From: Caballeronia insecticola
Lineage (GTDB): Bacteria > Pseudomonadota > Gammaproteobacteria > Burkholderiales > Burkholderiaceae
Direction of reading: 5' to 3'
NCBI RefSeq assembly: GCF_000402035.1
Contig: NC_021287.1
Location: 372,001 to 436,000, forward strand
DNA length: 64,000 nucleotides
Part shown: piece by piece, positions 18,708 through 29,700 of the stretch
How positions within the stretch are numbered: position 1 is the stretch's first letter
Layout: each line of letters begins with the position of its first letter
The notes under the pieces: generated by a model
Database searches by the model: none
What the model was told of the DNA's origin: nothing
The model's input: only the letters and a program-made list of their open reading frames with translations
Program-made: the position numbers and the translations under genes

Positions 18708-20126
18708 TCAACCTTCGAAAGCGAAGATTTTCCCCGGGTTCATCAAGTTGTTCGGATCGAGCGCCTGTTTGATGGCGCGCATCACCGCGATGGCATCCGC
18801 GCCGTGCTCGTCGATCATGAAGCCCATCTTGTGCAGCCCGACGCCATGTTCGCCGGTGCAGGTGCCGCCCATCGCGAGCGCCCGCGCGACGATAAGCCGG
18901 TTGATGCGCTCGGCTTCTTCGAGTTCTTCGGGCTTGGCGGGATCGAGCAGCATCGCGACGTGGAAGTTGCCGTCGCCGACATGGCCGACGATCGGGCTCG
19001 GCAAATACGAGCCTTGCAGGTCCTTCTCGGTTTCCTCGACGCATTCGGCGAGACGCGAGATCGGCACGCAGACGTCGGTGGTGACAGCGCGGCAGCCGGG
19101 CTTCAGTTGCAGCATCGCGAAGTAGGCGGAGTGACGCGCGTTCCACAGACGGCTGCGGTCTTCGGGACGCGTGGCCCATTCGAAGTCCTCGCCGCGATTT
19201 TCCGCGACGATATCCTGCACGGTCTGCGCCTGTTCCTTGACGCCGGATTCGGTGCCGTGGAATTCGAAGAACAGCATCGGCGCTTCACGCAGCGTCATGT
19301 TCGAGTGGCGATTGATCGCGCGCACGGCGAGCTTGTCGACGAATTCGACGCGCGCGATCGGCACGCCCATCTGGATCGTTTCGATGACGGCGCGCACGGC
19401 ATCGCCCATCGACGGGAACGCGCATACGGCCGCCGAAATCGCCTCGGGCTGCGGATAGAGGCGCACGGTGATTTCGGTGATGACGCCGAGCGTGCCTTCC
19501 GAGCCGACGAACAGGCGCGTCAGGTCGTATCCCGCAGACGATTTGCGCGCGCGCGTGCCGGTGTGGATGACGCGGCCATCGGCTGTGACGACGGTGAGCG
19601 CGAGCACGTTTTCGCGCATCGAGCCGTAGCGCACGGCGTTGGTGCCGGAGGCGCGCGTCGCGGACATGCCGCCGATGCTGGCGTCCGCGCCGGGGTCGAT
19701 CGGGAAGAACAGGCCCGTGTCCTTGAGCGCCTCGTTCAGTTGCTTGCGCGAGATGCCCGGCTGGACCGTGGCAGTGAGGTCTTCGGCGTTGATCGAGACG
19801 ACCTGGTTCATCTCGGACAGATCGATCGACACGCCGCCTTGCACCGCGAGCAAGTGGCCCTCAAGCGACGAGCCGTTGCCGTAGGGAATGATCGGCACGC
19901 CGTGCTCGGCGCAGAGCCGGACGATGGCTTGCACTTCCTCGGTGCTGCGCGCGAAGACGACGGCGTCGGGCAGTTGCGGGTCGAACGGCGATTCGTCACG
20001 CCCGTGATGTTCGCGCACGGCTTGCGATGTCGTCGCACGGTCGCCGAATGCTGCCTTCAGCGCTTCGAAAAGAGACGCGGGAAAGGGGCGTTTCTGAAGC
20101 GCGTGGTGTTCGCTGGGGTGATTCAC
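18708..20126 (-). CDS. FAD-binding oxidoreductase, D-lactate dehydrogenase (cytochrome)-like
   Basis: A 472-residue relative of GlcD with an FAD_binding_4 domain (PYGNGSSLEGHLLAVQGG, IDPGADASIGGMSATRASG) and FAD-oxidase_C domain (VGHVGDGNFHVAMLLDP, TGEHGVGLHKMGFMIDEHG). The GSSLEGH form of the FAD loop and its length resemble mitochondrial-type D-lactate dehydrogenases more than GlcD (GTGLSGG). It lies 75 bp upstream of glcD on the same strand and may share its promoter. A D-2-hydroxyacid is the likely substrate; exact specificity cannot be read from sequence. Confidence 0.85.
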   Translation of the reverse strand: MNHPSEHHALQKRPFPASLFEALKAAFGDRATTSQAVREHHGRDESPFDPQLPDAVVFARSTEEVQAIVRLCAEHGVPIIPYGNGSSLEGHLLAVQGGVSIDLSEMNQVVSINAEDLTATVQPGISRKQLNEALKDTGLFFPIDPGADASIGGMSATRASGTNAVRYGSMRENVLALTVVTADGRVIHTGTRARKSSAGYDLTRLFVGSEGTLGVITEITVRLYPQPEAISAAVCAFPSMGDAVRAVIETIQMGVPIARVEFVDKLAVRAINRHSNMTLREAPMLFFEFHGTESGVKEQAQTVQDIVAENRGEDFEWATRPEDRSRLWNARHSAYFAMLQLKPGCRAVTTDVCVPISRLAECVEETEKDLQGSYLPSPIVGHVGDGNFHVAMLLDPAKPEELEEAERINRLIVARALAMGGTCTGEHGVGLHKMGFMIDEHGADAIAVMRAIKQALDPNNLMNPGKIFAFEG

Positions 20127-20333
20127 GTGCGTGTCTCCGGACGATTCAGCTTGATGTTGTGCCTGGCCTCGCGCGTCTGTTTGTGCGCCGGGCGCTGGGT
20201 ATGGGCGTTGCGGGTTTTTGCTGATGCGCTCGGCATTCTCACTTTGTGACGACGCGAGCGGCGAACGGTGTTCATCGCATTTTACGCCCTCGGACGATGC
20301 TGGGCGGGCGGGGTTTCCAGGGGGATGCGTGCC

Positions 20334-20339
20334 TATAAT
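20334..20339 (+). promoter_or_regulatory. Perfect TATAAT -10 box upstream of the adenosyltransferase
   Basis: TATAAT lies 44 bp before the adenosyltransferase ATG. No convincing -35 hexamer is visible at the standard spacing, so this rests on the -10 only. Confidence 0.4.
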
Positions 20340-20382
20340 GGCTCGCCGGTTTATCGATGGATCAGCATTTCAGGGAGTGATG

Positions 20383-20940
20383 ATGGGACACCGCTTGAGC
20401 AAGATCGCCACACGCACCGGCGATGACGGAACCACGGGTTTGGGCGATGGCCGTCGCGTGTCGAAGGACGATGCGCGCATCGAGGCGATCGGCGATGTGG
20501 ATGAGTTGAATTCGTGCATCGGCGTTTTGCTTTGCGAACCGATGCCGTCCGACGTGCGGGATGTGCTGACGCAGATTCAGAACGATTTGTTCAGCTTAGG
20601 CGGGGAGTTGTCGATTCCCGGGCATTCGATGATTCAGGAGTCGCATCTCGCCCAACTGGATGCGTGGCTCGAGGAATACAACGCGACATTGCCGCCGTTG
20701 GCTGAATTTATCTTGCCGGGCGGGTCCAGGGCGGCGGCGTTGGCTCACGTTGCGCGGACGGTTTGCCGGAGGGCGGAGCGGGCGATTGTCGCGCTTGGGC
20801 GGGTTGAGGCGGCTGGCGTGAATGAGGCGCCGCGGCGGTATGTGAATCGGTTGTCGGATTTGATGTTTGTGGTGGCCCGGGTTTTGAATCGGGTGGATGG
20901 GGGGAGTGATGTTTTGTGGCGTCGTGCCGCCGCACCTTGA
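20383..20940 (+). CDS. Cob(I)alamin adenosyltransferase, PduO type
   Basis: Adenosylates cob(I)alamin using ATP to make coenzyme B12. The 185-residue protein has the N-terminal ATP-binding motif KIATRTGDDGTTGLGDG, then DVDELNSCIGVL, the core motif FILPGGSRAAALAHVARTVCRRAER and the C-terminal YVNRLSDLMFVVARVLNR. The ATG at 20383 follows CAGGGAG; the ATG at 20380 is equally possible. Its second half uses many G- and T-ended codons, unlike most genes here. It directly abuts the AT-rich AIPR island. Confidence 0.93.
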   Translation: MGHRLSKIATRTGDDGTTGLGDGRRVSKDDARIEAIGDVDELNSCIGVLLCEPMPSDVRDVLTQIQNDLFSLGGELSIPGHSMIQESHLAQLDAWLEEYNATLPPLAEFILPGGSRAAALAHVARTVCRRAERAIVALGRVEAAGVNEAPRRYVNRLSDLMFVVARVLNRVDGGSDVLWRRAAAP

Positions 20941-21017
20941 TGTTAAGCTCGTTAAGCGTTATTTTTTGCCAAAAAGTCAAGACGTAGCAATTTCTAACAT
21001 TAAAACAACTTAAGAAA

Positions 21018-22703
21018 ATGAGCATCATCCTTTCAACACGCGTCAGAAACCACATCGATTCGATCGTGAAAGAGCATCTTTACCTTGAAGACGCAGCTGA
21101 CGATTCAAAAAAATATTCGAGAGGAATCACTGCAGTATGTCTAGCGGGGCTCACCGGTCTTCCGTATTCTTCGGTGAAAGACTATGTAGTTGATGGAAGC
21201 CGCGACAATGGGATAGACGGAGTCGCCTACGATGCGCCAAAAAATAAGCTTTATCTAGTTCAGGCTAAATGGTCCAATAAAGGTACCGGTACTATTGATA
21301 CGGGAGATCTGCGAAAGTTTATTGCGGGCGTTTACGACCTGTTGAATGAGAATTGGGAGAAGTTTAACGCTCGATATGGCATCATTGCAAATAAAATATC
21401 AGACGCTATCCGGAACGATCCGGAAATCGTGGTGGTCGCCGCATTTAATAGCGATAATCCGATTAGCCGTGAGTGCGAAGATATCATAAGCGACTTCCTA
21501 GCTGAAAATAATTCGGATCACCAAGAGATCGTAACATTTAGGCAGTTTGATCTGAAGCGTCTTATTCGAACAATAAATTCAATTAAAGCCGGTTCGAAAT
21601 CGGACGTGGAACTCAATCTGTTGCATTGGGGCGAACAAAAAGAGCCATACTACGCTGTGTACGGAAAAATTTCGTGTGCAGATGTAGCAGAGTGGCACAA
21701 TACCCATGAGAACCTTCTCTTCTCCGAAAATATCCGGAATACGTTGCCAGAAAGCGAGATTAATACTCAAATAGAAGCCGCGTTGGTCAATGATCCAGCG
21801 GAGTTTTGGTATCTAAACAATGGAATAACGGCGATAGCGGACGAAGTCGTAAGAAAGCCTATCGGACTCGGTGATCAGAAGGAAAGCGCGCTTTGGAAAG
21901 TCAGCAATCTCAAGATCGTGAACGGAGCCCAAACTACCGGTTCGATTGCAAAAGCGTACAGCAAGAGTCCTCACGCGGTGCGGAAGGCGTATGTGCAGAT
22001 AAAGGTAATTTCGCTTGAAAACGCACCAATTGATATTGCAAAAAAAGTAACGACAGCTACTAACACACAGAATCGCGTTGACGCCAAGGACTTTCTGGCT
22101 TTGGATCCGATTCAGGACGGCATCGCGGAATCTTTCAAGCAACGTGGCATTCAGTATTGTTATCGACGCGGTGAGAGAGTTGTTGATGTCGCTAAAGGCC
22201 TTGAAGTCCAGGAGCTGGCTATGGCGCTAGCAGTCTCCAGCGATCATATGAGCAGTGTCACTGTCGCAAAGCGTAACGCCGGATCGCTTACTGATCCCAA
22301 CGGACATTACGCGAAAATATTCGACAAGCCACTCGACGCTGAACTGGCATGGAATTTGGTGCTTAAGTTTCGTGAAGTGGAGTCTCTTGCCACAGAGTAC
22401 ATGGGAAAACTCAAGGGGCGAGAGGCGCAATTCGCGGTACATGGCAATCGATTTATCGAACACTTGCTCGTAATTACAAGTGGTAGAGTCAGTAAGGAGA
22501 AGATCGCAAAGATTCATGAGGCGCTTAGGCGCGTAGTTAATGAGCTTTACGGAACAGACTGTTATCTCGCAGTTGTTTTTAAAAATACCAAAAAATGTGA
22601 AGCCATCAAAGCGCGAATGTTGGACTTAATGAAAAAATCATCGCACAACGCTTCTAAAAATCATGATTATAGTGCACAGCTTTCGCTGGGCATTGAAGAG
22701 TAG
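21018..22703 (+). CDS. AIPR-family abortive-infection/phage-resistance protein with Mrr-like N terminus
   Basis: The 561-residue protein carries the hallmarks of the AIPR family (PF10592): FWYLNNGIT (263-271), IVNGAQTTGSI (300-310) and TNTQNRVDAKDFLALDPIQ (about 348-366). The N-terminal 110 residues look like a PD-(D/E)XK/Mrr-type nuclease: DNGIDG (63-68) followed by LYLVQAK (78-84), giving the D...QxK pattern. The gene is strikingly AT-rich and full of A/T-ended codons, unlike all neighbours, so recent horizontal transfer is inferred. No methyltransferase, integrase or partner gene adjoins. Family members are linked to phage resistance; the mechanism of this one is unknown. The ribosome-binding site is weak (TTAAGAAA). 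Confidence 0.85.
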   Translation: MSIILSTRVRNHIDSIVKEHLYLEDAADDSKKYSRGITAVCLAGLTGLPYSSVKDYVVDGSRDNGIDGVAYDAPKNKLYLVQAKWSNKGTGTIDTGDLRKFIAGVYDLLNENWEKFNARYGIIANKISDAIRNDPEIVVVAAFNSDNPISRECEDIISDFLAENNSDHQEIVTFRQFDLKRLIRTINSIKAGSKSDVELNLLHWGEQKEPYYAVYGKISCADVAEWHNTHENLLFSENIRNTLPESEINTQIEAALVNDPAEFWYLNNGITAIADEVVRKPIGLGDQKESALWKVSNLKIVNGAQTTGSIAKAYSKSPHAVRKAYVQIKVISLENAPIDIAKKVTTATNTQNRVDAKDFLALDPIQDGIAESFKQRGIQYCYRRGERVVDVAKGLEVQELAMALAVSSDHMSSVTVAKRNAGSLTDPNGHYAKIFDKPLDAELAWNLVLKFREVESLATEYMGKLKGREAQFAVHGNRFIEHLLVITSGRVSKEKIAKIHEALRRVVNELYGTDCYLAVVFKNTKKCEAIKARMLDLMKKSSHNASKNHDYSAQLSLGIEE

Positions 22704-22755
22704 TATTACATCGCACCACGCGCGAGACGTCGTATAGCTCAGTCGCTATTTTACG

Positions 22756-22779
22756 GACCGACCTTCACTATGGTCGGTC
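22756..22779. terminator. Hairpin between the convergent AIPR gene and aroG
   Basis: Perfect 8-bp stem GACCGACC/GGTCGGTC with an 8-base loop, 52 bp after the AIPR stop and 14 bp before the aroG stop. Flanking sequence is only moderately T-rich, so its use as a bidirectional terminator is an inference from position. Confidence 0.5.
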
Positions 22780-22793
22780 TAGACAAGCTTTTA

Positions 22794-23867
22794 TCAGTTA
22801 CCGTTTGTTCGTCCGCTTCTCCGTTGCTTCACGGAGTCGGCCAGCCCTTCCAGCACGCCCACACTCTCATCCCACCCGATACAAGCATCGGTGACGCTCT
22901 GTCCGTAGGTCAATTCGCACCCTTCCTTCAAATCCTGTCGCCCCGCGACAAGATGCGACTCCACCATCACCCCAACAATCCGCTCGTCCCCGGAAGCAAG
23001 CTGCCGCCCGATATCTTCACAAACCGGAATCTGGTTCTCATGCTTCTTCGAGCTGTTCGCGTGACTCGCATCGATCATCAAACGCGCGGCTAAACCAGCC
23101 TTCCCGATATCACTACAAGCTGCATCCACACTCGCCGCATCGTAATTCGGCGCTTTGCCGCCGCGCAAAATAATGTGGCAATCCTCATTACCCGCGGTTG
23201 AAACAATCGCCGAATGCCCGCCTTTGGTCACAGAAAGGAAATGGTGAGGCTGCGAAGCCGCCTTGATTGCATCGACGGCGATCTTCACGTTGCCATCCGT
23301 ACCGTTCTTGAACCCGACCGGGCACGACAAGCCCGAAGCCAGTTCGCGATGAACCTGCGATTCAGTCGTCCGCGCGCCAATCGCGCCCCACGAAATCAGA
23401 TCGGCGATGTACTGCGGGCTGATCATATCGAGGTACTCGGTGCCGGCCGGAAGCCCAAGCTCATTGATATGCATGAGCAATTCCCGCGCGGTCCGCAACC
23501 CGTCGTTGATCTTGAAGCTGTTATCCATGAACGGATCGTTGATGAGCCCCTTCCAGCCGACCGTGGTCCGCGGCTTCTCGAAGTACACGCGCATCACAAT
23601 TTCGAGTTCTCCGGCGAACCGCTTGCGCTGCTCGATCAACCGCCCCGCGTACTCCATCGCAGCCTTCGGATCATGAATCGAGCAAGGCCCGATGATGACG
23701 ATCAGCCGGTCATCCATCCCGTGAAGGATGCGATGCATCGATTGCCGCGCGTTGTAGATCAGCTCCGACACCGGCTCGGCGCAGGGAAATTCGCGGATCA
23801 GATGCGCGGGCGGGGTCAGCTCTTTCAACTCGCGGATGCGTACGTCATCGGTATTGTGCGGGGGCAT
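22794..23867 (-). CDS. aroG: 3-deoxy-7-phosphoheptulonate synthase (DAHP synthase, AroG type)
   Basis: First enzyme of the shikimate pathway, condensing phosphoenolpyruvate with erythrose-4-phosphate. The 357-residue class I enzyme shows IIGPCSIHDPKAAMEYAG, MRVYFEKPRTTVGWKGLINDP, GARTTESQVHRELASGLS and the metal-site region MIDASHANSSKKHENQ. The N-terminal extension matches the feedback-inhibited AroF/G/H group; which amino acid inhibits it cannot be told. The 5' leader carries an attenuator with a Phe/Tyr/Trp-rich peptide, so transcription probably responds to aromatic amino acid supply. Confidence 0.96.
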   Translation of the reverse strand: MPPHNTDDVRIRELKELTPPAHLIREFPCAEPVSELIYNARQSMHRILHGMDDRLIVIIGPCSIHDPKAAMEYAGRLIEQRKRFAGELEIVMRVYFEKPRTTVGWKGLINDPFMDNSFKINDGLRTARELLMHINELGLPAGTEYLDMISPQYIADLISWGAIGARTTESQVHRELASGLSCPVGFKNGTDGNVKIAVDAIKAASQPHHFLSVTKGGHSAIVSTAGNEDCHIILRGGKAPNYDAASVDAACSDIGKAGLAARLMIDASHANSSKKHENQIPVCEDIGRQLASGDERIVGVMVESHLVAGRQDLKEGCELTYGQSVTDACIGWDESVGVLEGLADSVKQRRSGRTNGN

Positions 23868-23917
23868 TTCGTTACTCCAACAAGGGCAGATCCAGCGAAG
23901 ATCCAGGGCAGATGGCG

Positions 23918-23949
23918 AAAAAAAACCGCCAGACTCGCTGGCGGTTTTT
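23918..23949 (-). terminator. aroG attenuator: intrinsic terminator in the leader
   Basis: On the minus strand the leader RNA contains an 11-12 bp stem (AAAACCGCCAG/CTGGCGGTTTT, loop CGAGT) followed by a run of eight Ts, 50 bp before the aroG ATG. Its 5' arm, CCGCCAGCG (plus 23936-23944), is perfectly complementary to CGCTGGCGG inside the leader peptide gene (plus 23993-24001). That gives a mutually exclusive antiterminator pairing, the architecture of a ribosome-mediated attenuator. Confidence 0.85.
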
Positions 23950-23978
23950 CGGGAATTTCGGTTTTTTCGACCTAAGAC

Positions 23979-24044
23979 TCACCCCTCTCGATCCGCCAGC
24001 GGCTTGAGATGCCAAAAGAAATAAAAATAAAACTTGGCGGACAT
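23979..24044 (-). CDS. aroG leader peptide (Phe/Tyr/Trp-rich, 21 aa)
   Basis: A 22-codon frame on the minus strand runs from ATG 24042-24044 to TGA 23979-23981. It holds a block of seven consecutive aromatic codons encoding FYFYFFW, preceded by MSAK and followed by HLKPLADREG. A ribosome stalled on those codons would sit just before the CGCTGGCGG antiterminator segment and let it pair with the terminator's 5' arm. No strong ribosome-binding site is visible, so the start is supported by frame, composition and RNA architecture. Confidence 0.8.
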   Translation of the reverse strand: MSAKFYFYFFWHLKPLADREG

Positions 24045-24082
24045 GAGGGATCGAACGGGAGTCGAAAAAAGTTGTGACTGCT

Positions 24083-24112
24083 TTTATAACCGCAAACACG
24101 CGGCGCTGACAA
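24083..24112 (-). promoter_or_regulatory. Probable sigma-70 promoter of aroG leader
   Basis: On the minus strand TTGTCA (24107-24112) and TATAAA (24083-24088) are separated by 18 bp, close to consensus. They lie about 40 bp upstream of the leader peptide start, which places the transcript start just ahead of the peptide as an attenuator requires. Confidence 0.7.
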
Positions 24113-24137
24113 GCCTGCAACTACGAAACGCGGACAA

Positions 24138-24197
24138 TCCGCATCGGACCATGCGGCGACGCCGCAAACAAACGCATCCGATGCGGAAAATCCGCAT
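24138..24197. repeat. Cluster of inverted repeats between aroG promoter and tldD
   Basis: Three overlapping palindromes occupy 60 bp. TCCGCATCGGA (24138-24148) is the inverse of TCCGATGCGGA (24177-24187). TGCGGC and GCCGCA (24152-24166) form a tight hairpin with a 3-base loop. ATGCGGA/TCCGCAT (24181-24197) forms another hairpin 3 bp downstream of the tldD stop. The last may be a tldD terminator-like stem; the first could be a protein-binding site upstream of the aroG promoter. Confidence 0.6.
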
Positions 24198-24200
24198 GAA

Positions 24201-25667
24201 TCAGACCGTTCCGCCGACCGTCATCTTCTCGATACGCAATGTCGGCTGCCCGACGCCCACCGGCACGCTCTGGCCTTCCTTGCCGCACACGCCCACGCCG
24301 CTGTCGAGCGCCATGTCGTTGCCGATCATCGTCACGTATTTCAGCGATTCCGGCCCGCTGCCGATCAGCGTCGCGCCCTTCACCGGGTACGTGATCTTGC
24401 CGTCCTCGATCATGTACGCCTCGGACGCCGAGAACACGAACTTGCCGTTGGTGATATCGACCTGACCGCCGCCGAAATTCACCGCGTACAGGCCGTTCTT
24501 CACCGACGCCAGAATTTCCTCCGGATCCTTGTCGCCGTTAAGCATGTACGTGTTGGTCATGCGCGGCATCGGCAGGGCGGCGTACGACTCGCGACGCGCG
24601 TTGCCCGTCACCGGCATTTTCATCAGGCGCGCGTTGAGCGAGTCCTGAATGTAGCCCTTGAGAATGCCGTCTTCGATCAGCGTCGTGCACTGGGTCGGAT
24701 TGCCTTCGTCGTCGATATTGAGCGAGCCGCGCCGGTTCGGCAGCGTGCCGTCATCGACGACCGTGACGCCCTTCGCCGCGACCTGCTCGCCGATGCGCCC
24801 CGCAAACGCCGACGATCCCTTGCGGTTGAAATCGCCTTCGAGGCCGTGTCCGATCGCCTCGTGCAACAGCACGCCCGGCCAGCCCGGCCCGAGCACGACG
24901 GTCATCGCACCAGCCGGAGCAGGGCGCGCTTCGAGGTTGACGAGCGCCGCGTGCACGGCGTCGTCGACATATTTGTTCAGGATGGCGTCGGTGAAATAGC
25001 CGTAGTCGAAACGGCCGCCGCCGCCGCCCGTGCCGATCTCGCGCCGGCCATTCTGCTCGGCGATCACCGTCACGGACACGCGCACGAGCGGGCGCACGTC
25101 GGCGGCGAGGGCGCCGTCGCTGCGCGCGACCAGCACGACATCGTATTCGCCGGCGAGCCCCGCCATGACTTGCGTGATGCGCGGATCTTTACCGCGCGCC
25201 ATCTGCTCGACACGCTCCAGCAGTTTCACTTTCGCGTTGGCATCGAGCGAACTCAGCGGATCGGACGGCAGATACAGATCGCGGCCCGACACGCCCGTGA
25301 GCGCGCTCGCGGGTTTGATCTTGTGTTTGCCGCCGCCCGCGCGGGCGATCGCGCGCGTCATGAGCGCGGCCTGGCGGATGGATTCGGGCGAAAGATCGTC
25401 GGAATAGGCGAAAGCCGTGCGCTCGCCGGACACGGCGCGCACGCCGACGCCCTGGTCGATGCTGAAGCTGCCCGATTTGACGATGCCTTCTTCGAGACTC
25501 CACGCTTCGCTGCGCGTGGACTGGAAATAGAGGTCGGCATAATCGACGCGATGCTCGAAAATGTCCGCGAGCGTGCGTGTGATGAGTCCTTCGTCGAGGC
25601 CGTAGGGCGTGAGCAAAACGTCCTTCGCCGTGACCAGGTTGCGAATGCCGGGTTCGATGATGTTCAT
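24201..25667 (-). CDS. tldD: Metalloprotease TldD
   Basis: TldD pairs with TldE/PmbA to form a zinc protease that degrades unfolded peptides and matures some ribosomal peptides. The 488-residue product has the zinc motif in [18 protein letters not shown] (HExxxH form), the family end [14 protein letters not shown] and [20 protein letters not shown]. It follows the yhdP-like gene and a nitrilase-like gene on the same strand; yhdP with tldD is a conserved neighbourhood. Its partner pmbA is not in the window. Confidence 0.96.
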
Positions 25668-25814
25668 GCGGTGCCTATTACGTCTTCTAAGACGAGTTCG
25701 GTGATATTTCAGACGAATTGCAGACTATTCTACGGTCTGATTCAGTCACGTCATGTGCGGGGAGAAACCCGCATCTTCAAGTCGAGATTTCGCAAGGGGT
25801 CGCAGGCCGCGCGA

Positions 25815-26648
25815 TCACCCGATCACGCGATGCCGGTACGCCGGCAAACTCTGTCGCACGGCGACGATACGTTCCAGGTCGATGCCGCCCGCCACCACGC
25901 CCATGCCTTCGTCCTGCACGGCGACGATCTCGCCCCACGGATCGATCAGCATGCTGTGGCCCCACGTGCGGCGGCCGTTTTCGTGCCTGCCGCCCTGCGC
26001 CGCGGCGAGCACGTAGCACTGATTTTCGACGGCGCGCGCCTTCAATAACGTCTCCCAGTGCGCATTGCCCGTCGTATAGGTGAATGCGGACGGCACGACC
26101 ATCAGCGCGCAATCGCCGAGTTTCCGGTACAGCTCCGGAAAACGCAGGTCGTAACAAACCGACAAGCCGACGCGCCCGAACGGCGCGTCGAAGGTCCGTA
26201 CTTCGCTGCCCGGGCAAATGGTGCGCGCTTCGTCGAACGATTCCGCGCCTTTTTCGAAATTGAACAGATGAATCTTGTCGTAACGCGCGACCTGCGCGCC
26301 GGACGGATCAAAGACGAGCGTCGTGTTCAGCACGCGGTCCGCTTCCGGCGACTGCAACGGCAAGGTCCCGCCGATGATCCACACGCGATGTTCGCGCGCT
26401 GCATCGGAGAGGAATTGCTGAATGGGGCCGGAACCGGGCGTTTCACGGATCGCCAGTTTGTCGGTGTCCTTGAAGCCCATGTAGCAAAAATATTCCGGCA
26501 GGAGCACGAGTTGCGCGCCGCCGCGCGCCGCCTCGGCGATAAGGCGCCCGGCGTCGGCCAGATTGCGGTCCAACTCGGGCGTGCTGACCATTTGCAGCGC
26601 GGCGACTCGAAACGGCTTGCCGGCGCTTTCGCTCGATCTTTCGCTCAT
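25815..26648 (-). CDS. Carbon-nitrogen hydrolase (nitrilase superfamily, Nit1/YbeM-like)
   Basis: The 277-residue protein has the nitrilase-fold triad: Glu in LVLLPEYFCYMG, Lys in YDKIHLFNFEKG and Cys in VGLSVCYDLRFPELYRKL. Close relatives in Proteobacteria act as deaminated-glutathione amidases (metabolite repair), which is the best guess here. The ATG at 26648 is preferred over an in-frame TTG at 26666. It lies between the yhdP-like gene and tldD on the same strand (147 bp before tldD). Confidence 0.9.
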   Translation of the reverse strand: MSERSSESAGKPFRVAALQMVSTPELDRNLADAGRLIAEAARGGAQLVLLPEYFCYMGFKDTDKLAIRETPGSGPIQQFLSDAAREHRVWIIGGTLPLQSPEADRVLNTTLVFDPSGAQVARYDKIHLFNFEKGAESFDEARTICPGSEVRTFDAPFGRVGLSVCYDLRFPELYRKLGDCALMVVPSAFTYTTGNAHWETLLKARAVENQCYVLAAAQGGRHENGRRTWGHSMLIDPWGEIVAVQDEGMGVVAGGIDLERIVAVRQSLPAYRHRVIG

Positions 26649-26707
26649 GTGTCGGTGCGCAGCCAAGAAAATAGGGACGAAGGAGGCGTCGCGCGAACGC
26701 CCGTTTC

Positions 26708-29700
26708 TTACTGCACGGCGGACGGCACGTCGACGGCGGCTGGTGTTTCGATCTTACCCTGATCGCCCTTGAGTCGCTGGATGACAGGTTTGTTCCACGA
26801 ACCGGTGATCGAATAGTCGAAGGCGAACGCTTTCTGAATCGATGCCGACAGCGCGATGTCCGCCGCCAGCACGCCGAGCCCGAGCAGCGGATTGATGACC
26901 GCCGCGCCGATCGCAGCCGCGCCCGCGCCGACGGTCGGGATCACCTTCACGTGCAGATCCTGCGTCTGCTTCGGCAGATCGACCATGCCCTGCATCTGCA
27001 CGCGCGCGGGCGGCGTGACCATCAGGAAGTCGTCCGTGCGGCTGATGCCATCGACGATGCGCGCGTTGCCCGTCATCTTCTCGAACGGCAAACCCTTGCC
27101 GACGACGTCCTCGAAATGCAGCGTCAGCAGGTTCGCGAGACTGCGCAGGCTGAAGATGCCGAGCCACTTCGCCGCGCCCGGCGCGCGCAGAATTTGCCCG
27201 TGCCGCACATCGACGGCGACGTTGCCGTCGAGCGTGTTCATGTCGAGCGTGGTCGGGCCGCCGTTCCACGCCGCGTGGCCCGCCACCGTGCCGGTGCCCG
27301 CGTTGATCACGCGCGGCGCGCCGAAGCGGTCGATCAACTGGCCGACGTCCTTCAAGTCGAGCTTGAAATCGAGCGACGTGCGCCGCTGCAGGCCGTCGTC
27401 GGTGTCGTAGGGCATGGTGTCCTGCTGGGCGGGCTGTGGCGCTTGCGCAGTTCGGATCGCGCCGCCCGGCAGCGTGCGCCACGTCGCGTTGGCGGTGAGC
27501 GTTGCATCGGGATTGGCGAGTTCGAGCTTGTCGAGCGTCCAGATCGGCTCGTCGGCGATCACTTCGTTGTGGGCGTCGACTTCGAGCCGCCCGAGGCTGT
27601 GGCCGCGGAACACGAGCTCGTTCACGATGAGATCGATCGTCGGCATATTGCGCGGCGGCTTGCGGATCACGCGGCCGACCAGATCGTCCTCCGTCTTGTC
27701 CGGAATCACGACTTTCGCGAAGCGTGCCTGCAACGCGCCCGGGCTTTCTTTCGTTGCGCCGGGCGTCCACGCGAGATAGCCCGACACCTGATTGGACGCC
27801 ACATTCGCCTGCCACTTGCGATCGCTCTGGCTTTCGCTCGCGCCGATCACGACGTTCTCCCAGCGCCGGTCGAGCAGCCTGAGCGTCGTGAAATGGACGG
27901 CGGCGCGCGTCGGGATGAATTGTTTGACGTCTTCGCTCATCGGCGGACGCGTCGCGTTTGCGGCGGCTACTGCTTGCGGCGCGGATGCGCTCGCCGTGCT
28001 GATCTCGGCGAAGGTTTTGCGCCAGGCGTCGGCGTCGAGTTCGTCGAGATCGACGGCGGCGCTCACGCCTTCAGCAGGCAGATCGCCCGGCTTGTTCACG
28101 CCGATCGCGCCGCGCACGACTTTCAACTGCGCGCGCATGTTCATCGGCTCGGCGGCGTTCTGCGGGTCGATCTTCACCTGCGCACGGCCGATCTGCCGGA
28201 ACACGTAATGCGCTTGCACGGGACCGAAGCTCAACTGCGCGTCGTGTAGATCCGACGGGCCGCCCGGCGTCGGCTGGAACGTGAAGGAGAACGGCATCGG
28301 CGTGCCTTGTGCCTTGCCGAACGGGGCGGGCAGATCGATCGCGAGCCCCGACAGATCCGAACTCGCCCGCACGTTCGGCAGCGCGTTCTTCTCGCCGCGC
28401 ACATGCAATTCATATGGCGCCGCGCCCTTGATGCGCTTCATGAACTGCACGACCTGCGGCGTCATGCGTGCATTGAAGCGCTCAGCTGCGTCTGCGCCGA
28501 TGCGCCCGTTCACGTCGATGGCATAGCTGCCGTCAGGCTGCACGCCGCCTTTCGCGCGCACGTCGCCGCCGAGCAGTTGCGCGGTCAGGTCGTTGAGCGT
28601 GACGGTTTTCGCGGCGAAGTCCGCGCGGCCGCGCAGATGCGTGAGCGGCGGCAGATTGCCGTACGCGACTTCGTTGTCGGCGAACGTGAGCGAGCCTTTA
28701 TATTCGGGCTTGATGGGCGGCTGCGGCGCGGGCGGGCGATAGCGCGGAATGCCGAGCGTGAGCGCGAGCGCGGCGTCGCCTTTCGCGTCGATTTTGCGCG
28801 TCGCGTGTTTCGCCATCAGGCCGAGCGAGCTGTCGTCGACGTATTGCAGCATGTCGGCGAGCGGGCCGTGCGCGCGGCCGTCGATCCACAGTTTCGTTTC
28901 GCGGTTGCCCGTATCGTCGATGCGCCCGGTCACTTTCGTCACGCGCACGCCGCGATAATGGCCGCGGTCGATATCGAAGCCGAGCTTGTTCTGCGCAAGC
29001 GTAAACACGCCGTCGATGCCCTCGAACGCCGGCCAGAAGTTCGGCAGGCCGTTGGCCATCTTGCGCGGCGGAAACGGCGTGGGATCGAACTTGCCGCCCG
29101 TGAAGGGCGCGTTGATGCGGAACACGCCCGCATCGGGAAACTTCGCGTAGGGGAAGCGGGTGAGATCGCCGTGCACTTCGAGCGTGCCGTTTCTCGCGAC
29201 GCCTGCCTGCAGCGCGTGACCGAGATAGACGCGCACGCGCTCGTTCAGGCTCGTCGGCAGATAGCGCACGAGACGCGTCACCTTCAGATACGCGACCTTC
29301 GCTTTCAGGTCGAGATTGCCGCGCCCATGGCCCTGATTCCAGTAGTCGGCGGTGACTTCGCCTTCGGCGTCCGCGTTCTTCACGTGCAGCGTATCGAGAT
29401 GAATTTTGAACGCGCGGCGCTGTTCGCCGGGCGCGATGGCATCGGCGACGGTCCAGCGCGCGTTGCCCCGCAGCGAATCGAAGGTGAGACGCGGATCGTC
29501 GAAGGCGCCGGGAATGATGACCGCCGCGTTTTTCGTGTCGATGGTGATGCGGCCTTCCTTCTCGTTCGCGTCGACGACGCCCCACAGATTGTCGACCCCC
29601 GGAATGCCCGCGCGCGGATGGTTGTTGATCGTGAGGCCGGGCGGCGGTTCCTGCGCCTGCACGCTGATGCCTTGCAACTCGCCCTTGAACGCGTAATGCA

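Follow-up and report, generated by a model that had tools for sequence, protein, structure and literature searches.

A putative ribosome-mediated transcription attenuator with phenylalanine and tyrosine control codons upstream of aroG in Caballeronia insecticola

Results

The aroG leader region

A gap of 333 nt separates a tldD-like gene (24201-25667, with PmbA/TldD domains) from aroG (22794-23867) in Caballeronia insecticola. Positions are those of the window, i.e. the whole stretch of 64 000 nucleotides that was analysed, taken from contig 1 of a genome of 6.96 Mb. Its closest named relatives bear the titles Caballeronia, Burkholderia and Paraburkholderia. Read on the minus strand, the gap contains, in this order, a promoter-like pair, a frame of 21 codons, a U-tailed terminator and a further 50 nt, after which aroG begins. 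The features are as follows.

24084-24112 (-): putative sigma-70 promoter; -35 TTGTCA at 24112-24107, spacer of 17 nt, -10 TTATAA at 24089-24084
23979-24044 (-): leader peptide gene, 21 codons and TGA, MSAKFYFYFFWHLKPLADREG; read directly
24035-24041 (-): segment 1 (protector), TCCGCCA, codons 2-4; from the fold, partner TGGCGGA of segment 2
24012-24032 (-): control codons Phe-Tyr-Phe-Tyr-Phe-Phe-Trp (codons 5-11); from the sequence, with synonymous changes at several positions
23993-24001 (-): segment 2, CGCTGGCGG, 5′ side of the antiterminator, within codons 15-18; from the sequence
23936-23944 (-): segment 3, CCGCCAGCG, common to antiterminator and terminator; from the sequence
23918-23949 (-): intrinsic terminator, stem AAAAACCGCCAG/CTGGCGGTTTTT (segments 3:4) with eight T; from the sequence, paired in relatives
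22794-23867 (-): aroG, 3-deoxy-7-phosphoheptulonate (DAHP) synthase; NF006723 AroG at 597.7 bits (cut-off 568) and PF00793

A sequence-only reading of this DNA had described the promoter-like pair, the 21-aa frame with FYFYFFW, the U-tailed terminator 50 bp before aroG and a perfect complementarity between a segment of the peptide gene and the 5′ arm of the terminator. Direct reading of the minus strand agreed with it base for base, in coordinates and in complementarities. The leader starts with the ATG at 24044 and ends with the TGA at 23981-23979. CGCTGGCGG (24001-23993) is the exact complement of CCGCCAGCG (23944-23936) over 9 bp. The terminator stem pairs 23949-23938 with 23932-23921, the eight T occupy 23925-23918 and the aroG ATG (23867) lies 50 nt further, with a GGAG at 23878-23875 ahead of it. 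The -10 box may also be read as TATAAA with a spacer of 18 nt. The RNA would be expected to start near 24076.

Neither this promoter nor this terminator was listed by a consensus scan of a stretch of about 1 kb. The promoter was missed because the scan requires a T at the sixth -10 base, and the terminator probably because its stem uses part of the T run. One other terminator-like site was listed, for 1.1 expected by chance in a 1-kb stretch.

Chance controls and fold

When the intergenic gap was dinucleotide-shuffled 2000 times, no short frame with seven consecutive aromatic codons arose; the best shuffled run was five aromatic codons, in 7 of the 2000. Among the 745 short frames of the whole window, the aroG leader was the only one with an aromatic run longer than three. 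RNA folding, which had been proposed as a check, gave a minimum free energy for 23911-24076 with z = -5.58, and none of 200 shuffles folded as well. The fold of the locus contains the protector pairing TCCGCCA (segment 1) with TGGCGGA (segment 2). A protector segment is also present in trpL. A long extension of the 1:2 pairing in this fold was not evident in relatives inspected by eye and was not counted.

Conservation in aroG loci

A set of 130 loci was assembled, 30 via AroG from 61 genomes (the C. insecticola genome included), 20 from the same search and 80 named. To qualify, a locus had to contain an ATG frame in which five or more of nine residues are aromatic, with a terminator behind it. 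Frame and terminator precede aroG in 120 of these loci, which are mostly close relatives; 108 of the 120 are distinct and 12 repeat an earlier stretch, some being contigs fetched twice. One locus (L044) has the frame and lacks the hairpin by the strict rule, and no qualifying frame was found in the other nine of the 130 (L035, L038, L040-L043, L045, L047 and L050). For the other families of the order (L036-L050), the frame was present in 7/15 loci. L035 belongs to a 3.7-Mb genome of the same genus (G034); the DNA upstream of its aroG is apparently unrelated and contains no leader up to the contig end.

For codon counts, 142 distinct leaders with a terminator were used, 96 near and 46 far (AroG identity under 82%). 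Selection required four or more aromatic residues out of nine, and leaders in which the strict finder saw no hairpin (e.g. L044, L156 and L163) were left out. FYFYF is retained in 91/96 near leaders; the lack of conservation of the aromatic run that would have spoken against the sequence-only reading did not occur. In these 91 leaders, the two Tyr codons are TAT/TAC in 59/32 and 36/55 cases and the fifth codon is TTT/TTC in 48/43. The mixed Tyr codons and the mixed fifth codon indicate that the amino acids are conserved more than the bases, and we infer translation of the leader from this synonymous change. TTT is almost invariant at the first and third Phe (89/91 and 90/91), which counts against the reading. 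In the block CTC-nnn-CCG-CTG-GCG, the codons are identical in 89, 88, 89 and 89 of the 89 Pro-Leu-Ala leaders. The antiterminator codons are fixed, wobble base included, so the RNA itself is conserved there. Also counted against the reading were four near loci (L010, L062, L064 and L069) in which the frame is shifted at or after the aromatic run. The shifts result from single-base length changes and leave the segments intact; L069 is titled Candidatus Burkholderia humilis. In 81/96 near leaders, a TATAA[AT] box precedes the leader ATG by 20-110 nt; 73 of the 81 also match the -35 box at four or more of its six bases.

Pairing was examined in alignment A1, made of 40 leaders thinned for similarity. 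A leader search with covariation had been suggested; the leader does recur, and compensated pairs were obtained for the terminator and for no other helix of the switch. In the terminator, 479/479 cells are paired (100%; slid controls 38-67%) and two pairs are changed on both sides, a number reached by 16/500 shuffles. The both-side changes amount to 6 cells (0/500 shuffles), all from A-U to G-C, in 2 and 4 sequences. Pairing extends to 95.6% of the cells in the antiterminator (n = 360) and to 94.1% in the protector (n = 320). No compensated pair was found in these two helices in A1, which counts against the reading and arises because segment 2 scarcely varies. In 4/40 sequences the terminator arm has G for A, and segment 2 then pairs U-G. 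An antiterminator helix of at least 7 bp is present in 93/96 near and 29/46 far leaders, the far count being listed against the reading; the helix taken for L039 is a chance one.

The consensus fold contains a near-invariant local hairpin, UCUC...CCG/CGG...GAGA (24009-23986, minus strand; columns 55-78 of A1). It is exclusive with both 1:2 and 2:3, has no covariation and could be a polymerase pause hairpin.

Distribution in Burkholderiales and beyond

A covariance model (R1) built from the leader found one full-length copy in this genome. Within the order, 250 genomes were searched. R1 matched 101 of them at E ≤ 0.1, in many cases over the terminator only, and 63 matches in 61 genomes span the whole model (counted by hand). 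Fifty-eight of the 63, from 14 families, are followed on the same strand, at a distance of at most 200 nt, by an AroG gene, and all 51 matches of at least 30 bits are among them. The other five (G266:C22, G274:C15, G218, G064 and G054) are full-length, below 30 bits and away from AroG. Most of them resemble plain terminators, the G054 match is inside a gene, and they were not counted as leaders. A search of 274 genomes from the class gave matches at E ≤ 0.001 in nine of them. Besides this genome, the nine comprise two from the order and six from outside it. Two of these six are AroG leaders (G448 and G296, of one family) and four are not. A plasmid search found nothing.

R1 contains the aromatic codons, so its matches favour them. 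A survey based on AroG only is free of that bias. It took in 110 genomes of the order, in 71 of which AroG was present at E ≤ 1e-110, and 25 of these 71 have a short upstream frame with at least 5/9 aromatic residues, for 14/710 in shuffled upstream DNA. A terminator was found upstream of aroG in 21/25 genomes with the frame vs 4/46 without it (Fisher p 2e-10, kinship not corrected), a terminator being accepted anywhere in the last 330 nt and not just behind the frame. One of the 25 (G125) has a frame that resembles a chance hydrophobic one, and one of the 46 (G124) does possess a genuine leader, whose aromatic residues number four. The 46/71 genomes without a leader by the rule used were counted against the reading. 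The system is widespread and far from universal.

Start of the leader frame

None of 108 leaders has GGAG, GAGG, AGGA or AAGG within 20 nt upstream of its start, and the same motifs are found at 105/108 aroG starts (93/108 in a narrower window of 15 nt). In the 142-leader set, they occur in 0/96 near leaders, which are mutually related, and in 2/46 far leaders, which is no different from chance, the local composition predicting 6.8%. Most leaders seem, from their sequences, to start without a Shine-Dalgarno motif, a point that was absent from the sequence-only reading, as was the protector segment. In three loci of other families (L037, L039 and L046), a -10-like box ends 6-7 nt before the leader ATG, a layout that by eye resembles that of leaderless mRNA. 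Purine-rich Shine-Dalgarno-like 4-mers near the end of the peptide (95/96 near and 41/46 far leaders) were discarded, shuffles giving fractions of 0.88 and 0.74.

Ribosome masking

In the masking test, P-15 to P+16 were blocked for the ribosome and the RNA was folded up to segment 3. The probability of 2:3 pairing was 0.90 with the ribosome at codons 2-5. It was 0.39, 0.76, 0.28 and 0.25 for codons 6 to 9 in turn, and 0 from codon 10 to codon 22. The protector 1:2 had a probability of 0.93 without ribosome and of 0.85, 0.96 and 0.85 with the ribosome at codons 10-12. Stalls at F10 and W11 yield 1:2 rather than 2:3, which counts against the reading. Segment 2 is also free (0.90) with the ribosome at codons 2-4; the aromatic codons are therefore not distinguished by position alone. 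When the whole RNA was folded at equilibrium, segment 4 included, the terminator had a probability of 1.00 at every ribosome position. Antitermination must therefore be kinetic, acting before segment 4 is made.

The test was extended to the 142 leaders. When the best aromatic codon was occupied by the ribosome, segment 3 paired upstream with a probability above 0.5 in 96/96 near and 46/46 far leaders. The corresponding numbers are 60 and 29 without ribosome, 41 and 26 with the ribosome at the stop codon, and 57 and 25 with shuffled segments. As the best of all aromatic codons was taken here and the best of two in the control, the contrast in this modelling appears present but modest. The protector pairing is clear in this locus and in A1; it is not in many of the other leaders.

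Measured to segment 2, the median distance is 31 nt from the first aromatic codon, in near and far leaders alike, and 13 nt (near) or 11 nt (far) from the last one. The latter spacing is about the reach of the ribosome ahead of its A site. With these medians, the aromatic codons occupy the stretch where a stalled ribosome would leave segment 2 uncovered.

The following mechanism may be proposed. RNA polymerase would start near 24076 and a ribosome would begin the leader at 24044. Under a shortage of charged tRNA-Phe or tRNA-Tyr, the ribosome would stall in codons 5-9, covering segment 1 and leaving segment 2 free. Segment 3 would then be taken up by segment 2 ahead of the synthesis of segment 4, the terminator would come too late and aroG would be transcribed. 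With charged tRNAs, the ribosome would proceed and cover segment 2, and segment 3 would pair with segment 4. If the leader is not translated, segments 1 and 2 would pair with each other and segment 3 would again pair with segment 4. In both cases, the 3:4 pairing would end transcription in the U tract near 23918.

The traits of a classical attenuator are present: a cluster of end-product codons, an intrinsic terminator before aroG and an antiterminator exclusive with it. Judged from sequence, the aroG leader is very probably a ribosome-mediated transcription attenuator.

Amino acids probably read by the leader

Among the 142 leaders, Phe is present in 142, Tyr in 136 and Trp in 100. Phe and Tyr codons form the core of the leader and Trp is optional. 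The sequence-only reading had proposed an attenuator of aroG sensing Phe, Tyr and Trp; the sequence tests support the part that concerns Phe and Tyr codons. Exchange among aromatic residues is seen in the leaders MTRRFFFFFYFPCLLADGTG, MLRVTPYFFWFWFPKPLAAGRI and MKLAHFFFFFYFSYSKPQAVGRR.

It had also been proposed that the final Trp lets the leader read all three products. Trp shortage would then relieve termination in the same attenuator through the Trp codon. The presence of Trp in 77/96 near and 23/46 far leaders is in favour of this, as is its position in this locus, where the Trp codon lies 13 nt before segment 2, which would be just uncovered. Against it, Trp is absent from 42/142 leaders and Phe from none, in a set picked for aromatic residues. 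The Trp position is occupied by Ser in 4/10 loci titled Cupriavidus and by Ala in 4/4 titled Pandoraea. Masking of the ribosome at Trp moreover leads to the protector (1:2 at 0.96, 2:3 at 0), a result that is perhaps too harsh, since a 1:2 duplex across the ribosome may be sterically impossible. The Phe-Tyr-Phe leader aroR of Corynebacterium glutamicum is said to answer to Phe and not to Tyr (PMC11802643), so the presence of a codon is no proof of sensing. A response to all three products is thus possible in our view and somewhat doubtful.

The terminated leader RNA, or the peptide, might also act in trans, and the aromatic run would then be retained partly for that purpose. Such an action is described for the trp leader peptide of Sinorhizobium meliloti, peTrpL (PMC7298713). 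Apart from its aromaticity, the aroG peptide varies greatly between families, and frameshifts alter its tail in four near loci, which makes a role in trans improbable here. That a plain terminator lies beside a chance open frame is conceivable inasmuch as terminator-like sites are common (1.1 expected in a 1-kb stretch), and is made very improbable by the aromatic run (0/2000 shuffles), its conservation at the codon level and the co-occurrence of frame and terminator across families.

Discussion

An attenuator responding to Phe and Tyr would belong to a classical type of mechanism, which is described elsewhere for DAHP synthase genes, and the leader has no match here in Rfam, Pfam or NCBIfam. 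Rfam (4227 models), searched with positions 20000-28000 of the window at E ≤ 1, returned only asX2, on the plus strand, at 21.7 bits for a gathering threshold of 70. Known amino-acid leaders and T-boxes are part of Rfam. The leader peptide matched no family of Pfam-A or NCBIfam at E ≤ 10. Since no Rfam or protein model matches, a curated family would help to annotate many genomes. In the literature searched, no description for Burkholderiales was found; an earlier prediction may exist in older works or in supplementary tables. A 2010 survey of premature terminators contains no aroG, aroF or DAHP in its main text (PMC2965389).

The DAHP synthase attenuators on record include the aroR leader of aroF in C. 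glutamicum (PMC11802643, PMC4046766). As in the aroG leader, aromatic codons are described before a DAHP synthase gene, with ribosome-mediated attenuation. The bacterium is of another phylum, aroR has three consecutive aromatic codons (Phe-Tyr-Phe) vs seven here, and its reported response is to Phe and not to Tyr (PMC11802643, PMC4046766 for the leader, PMC11802643 for the response); the comparison is one between descriptions. The uORFC-13-1 motif upstream of aroF in Acholeplasma is also predicted to contain a frame with a Phe codon and a terminator. It differs by a ribosome-binding site, by having at least one Phe codon and by its reported restriction to Acholeplasma and environmental sequences (PMC8632094). 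In two Vibrio species, putative attenuators are listed before a DAHP synthase-tyrA operon in which, as here, the DAHP synthase gene comes first; the Vibrio operon includes tyrA, and the listing gives no leader codons (PMC1173090). The enterobacterial trpL and pheL leaders share control codons, antiterminator and terminator with the aroG leader, and differ in that each is reported to read one amino acid and to act on a terminal branch (PMC5343134, PMC11802643). In Escherichia coli, trp and pheA are described as attenuated, and the DAHP synthases as controlled by TyrR and TrpR (PMC5343134).

The situation in C. insecticola is different. Neither TrpR (TIGR01321) nor TIGR04381 (listed as HTH_TypR), which we take to be the TyrR-type domain, had a match in this genome, and both matched in the E. 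coli control. No aromatic run longer than one was found in short frames up to 450 nt upstream of trpE, pheA and the second DAHP synthase gene (G000:C3), which makes the aroG leader the sole aromatic attenuator among the genes inspected. No type II DAHP synthase was found in this genome. For a bacterium without a detected TrpR or TyrR-type domain, the leader suggests an explanation of DAHP synthase control that can be tested. It also illustrates an attenuator in which, over evolution, control codons for one amino acid are exchanged for those of another, and it could serve as a natural Phe/Tyr sensor. In a broader view, to which we give an even chance, an old lineage-wide sensor of Phe and Tyr, and sometimes Trp, devoid of a Shine-Dalgarno motif, would control the entry enzyme of the pathway in many families of Burkholderiales and in at least one outside, where it would replace TrpR, TyrR and branch-specific attenuators.

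On the other side of aroG and convergent to it, a gene on the plus strand (21018-22703) encodes an AIPR domain with a weak match to Mrr-type restriction nucleases. It is located between aroG and a cobalamin adenosyltransferase gene (20218-20940) and is perhaps a phage-defence gene.
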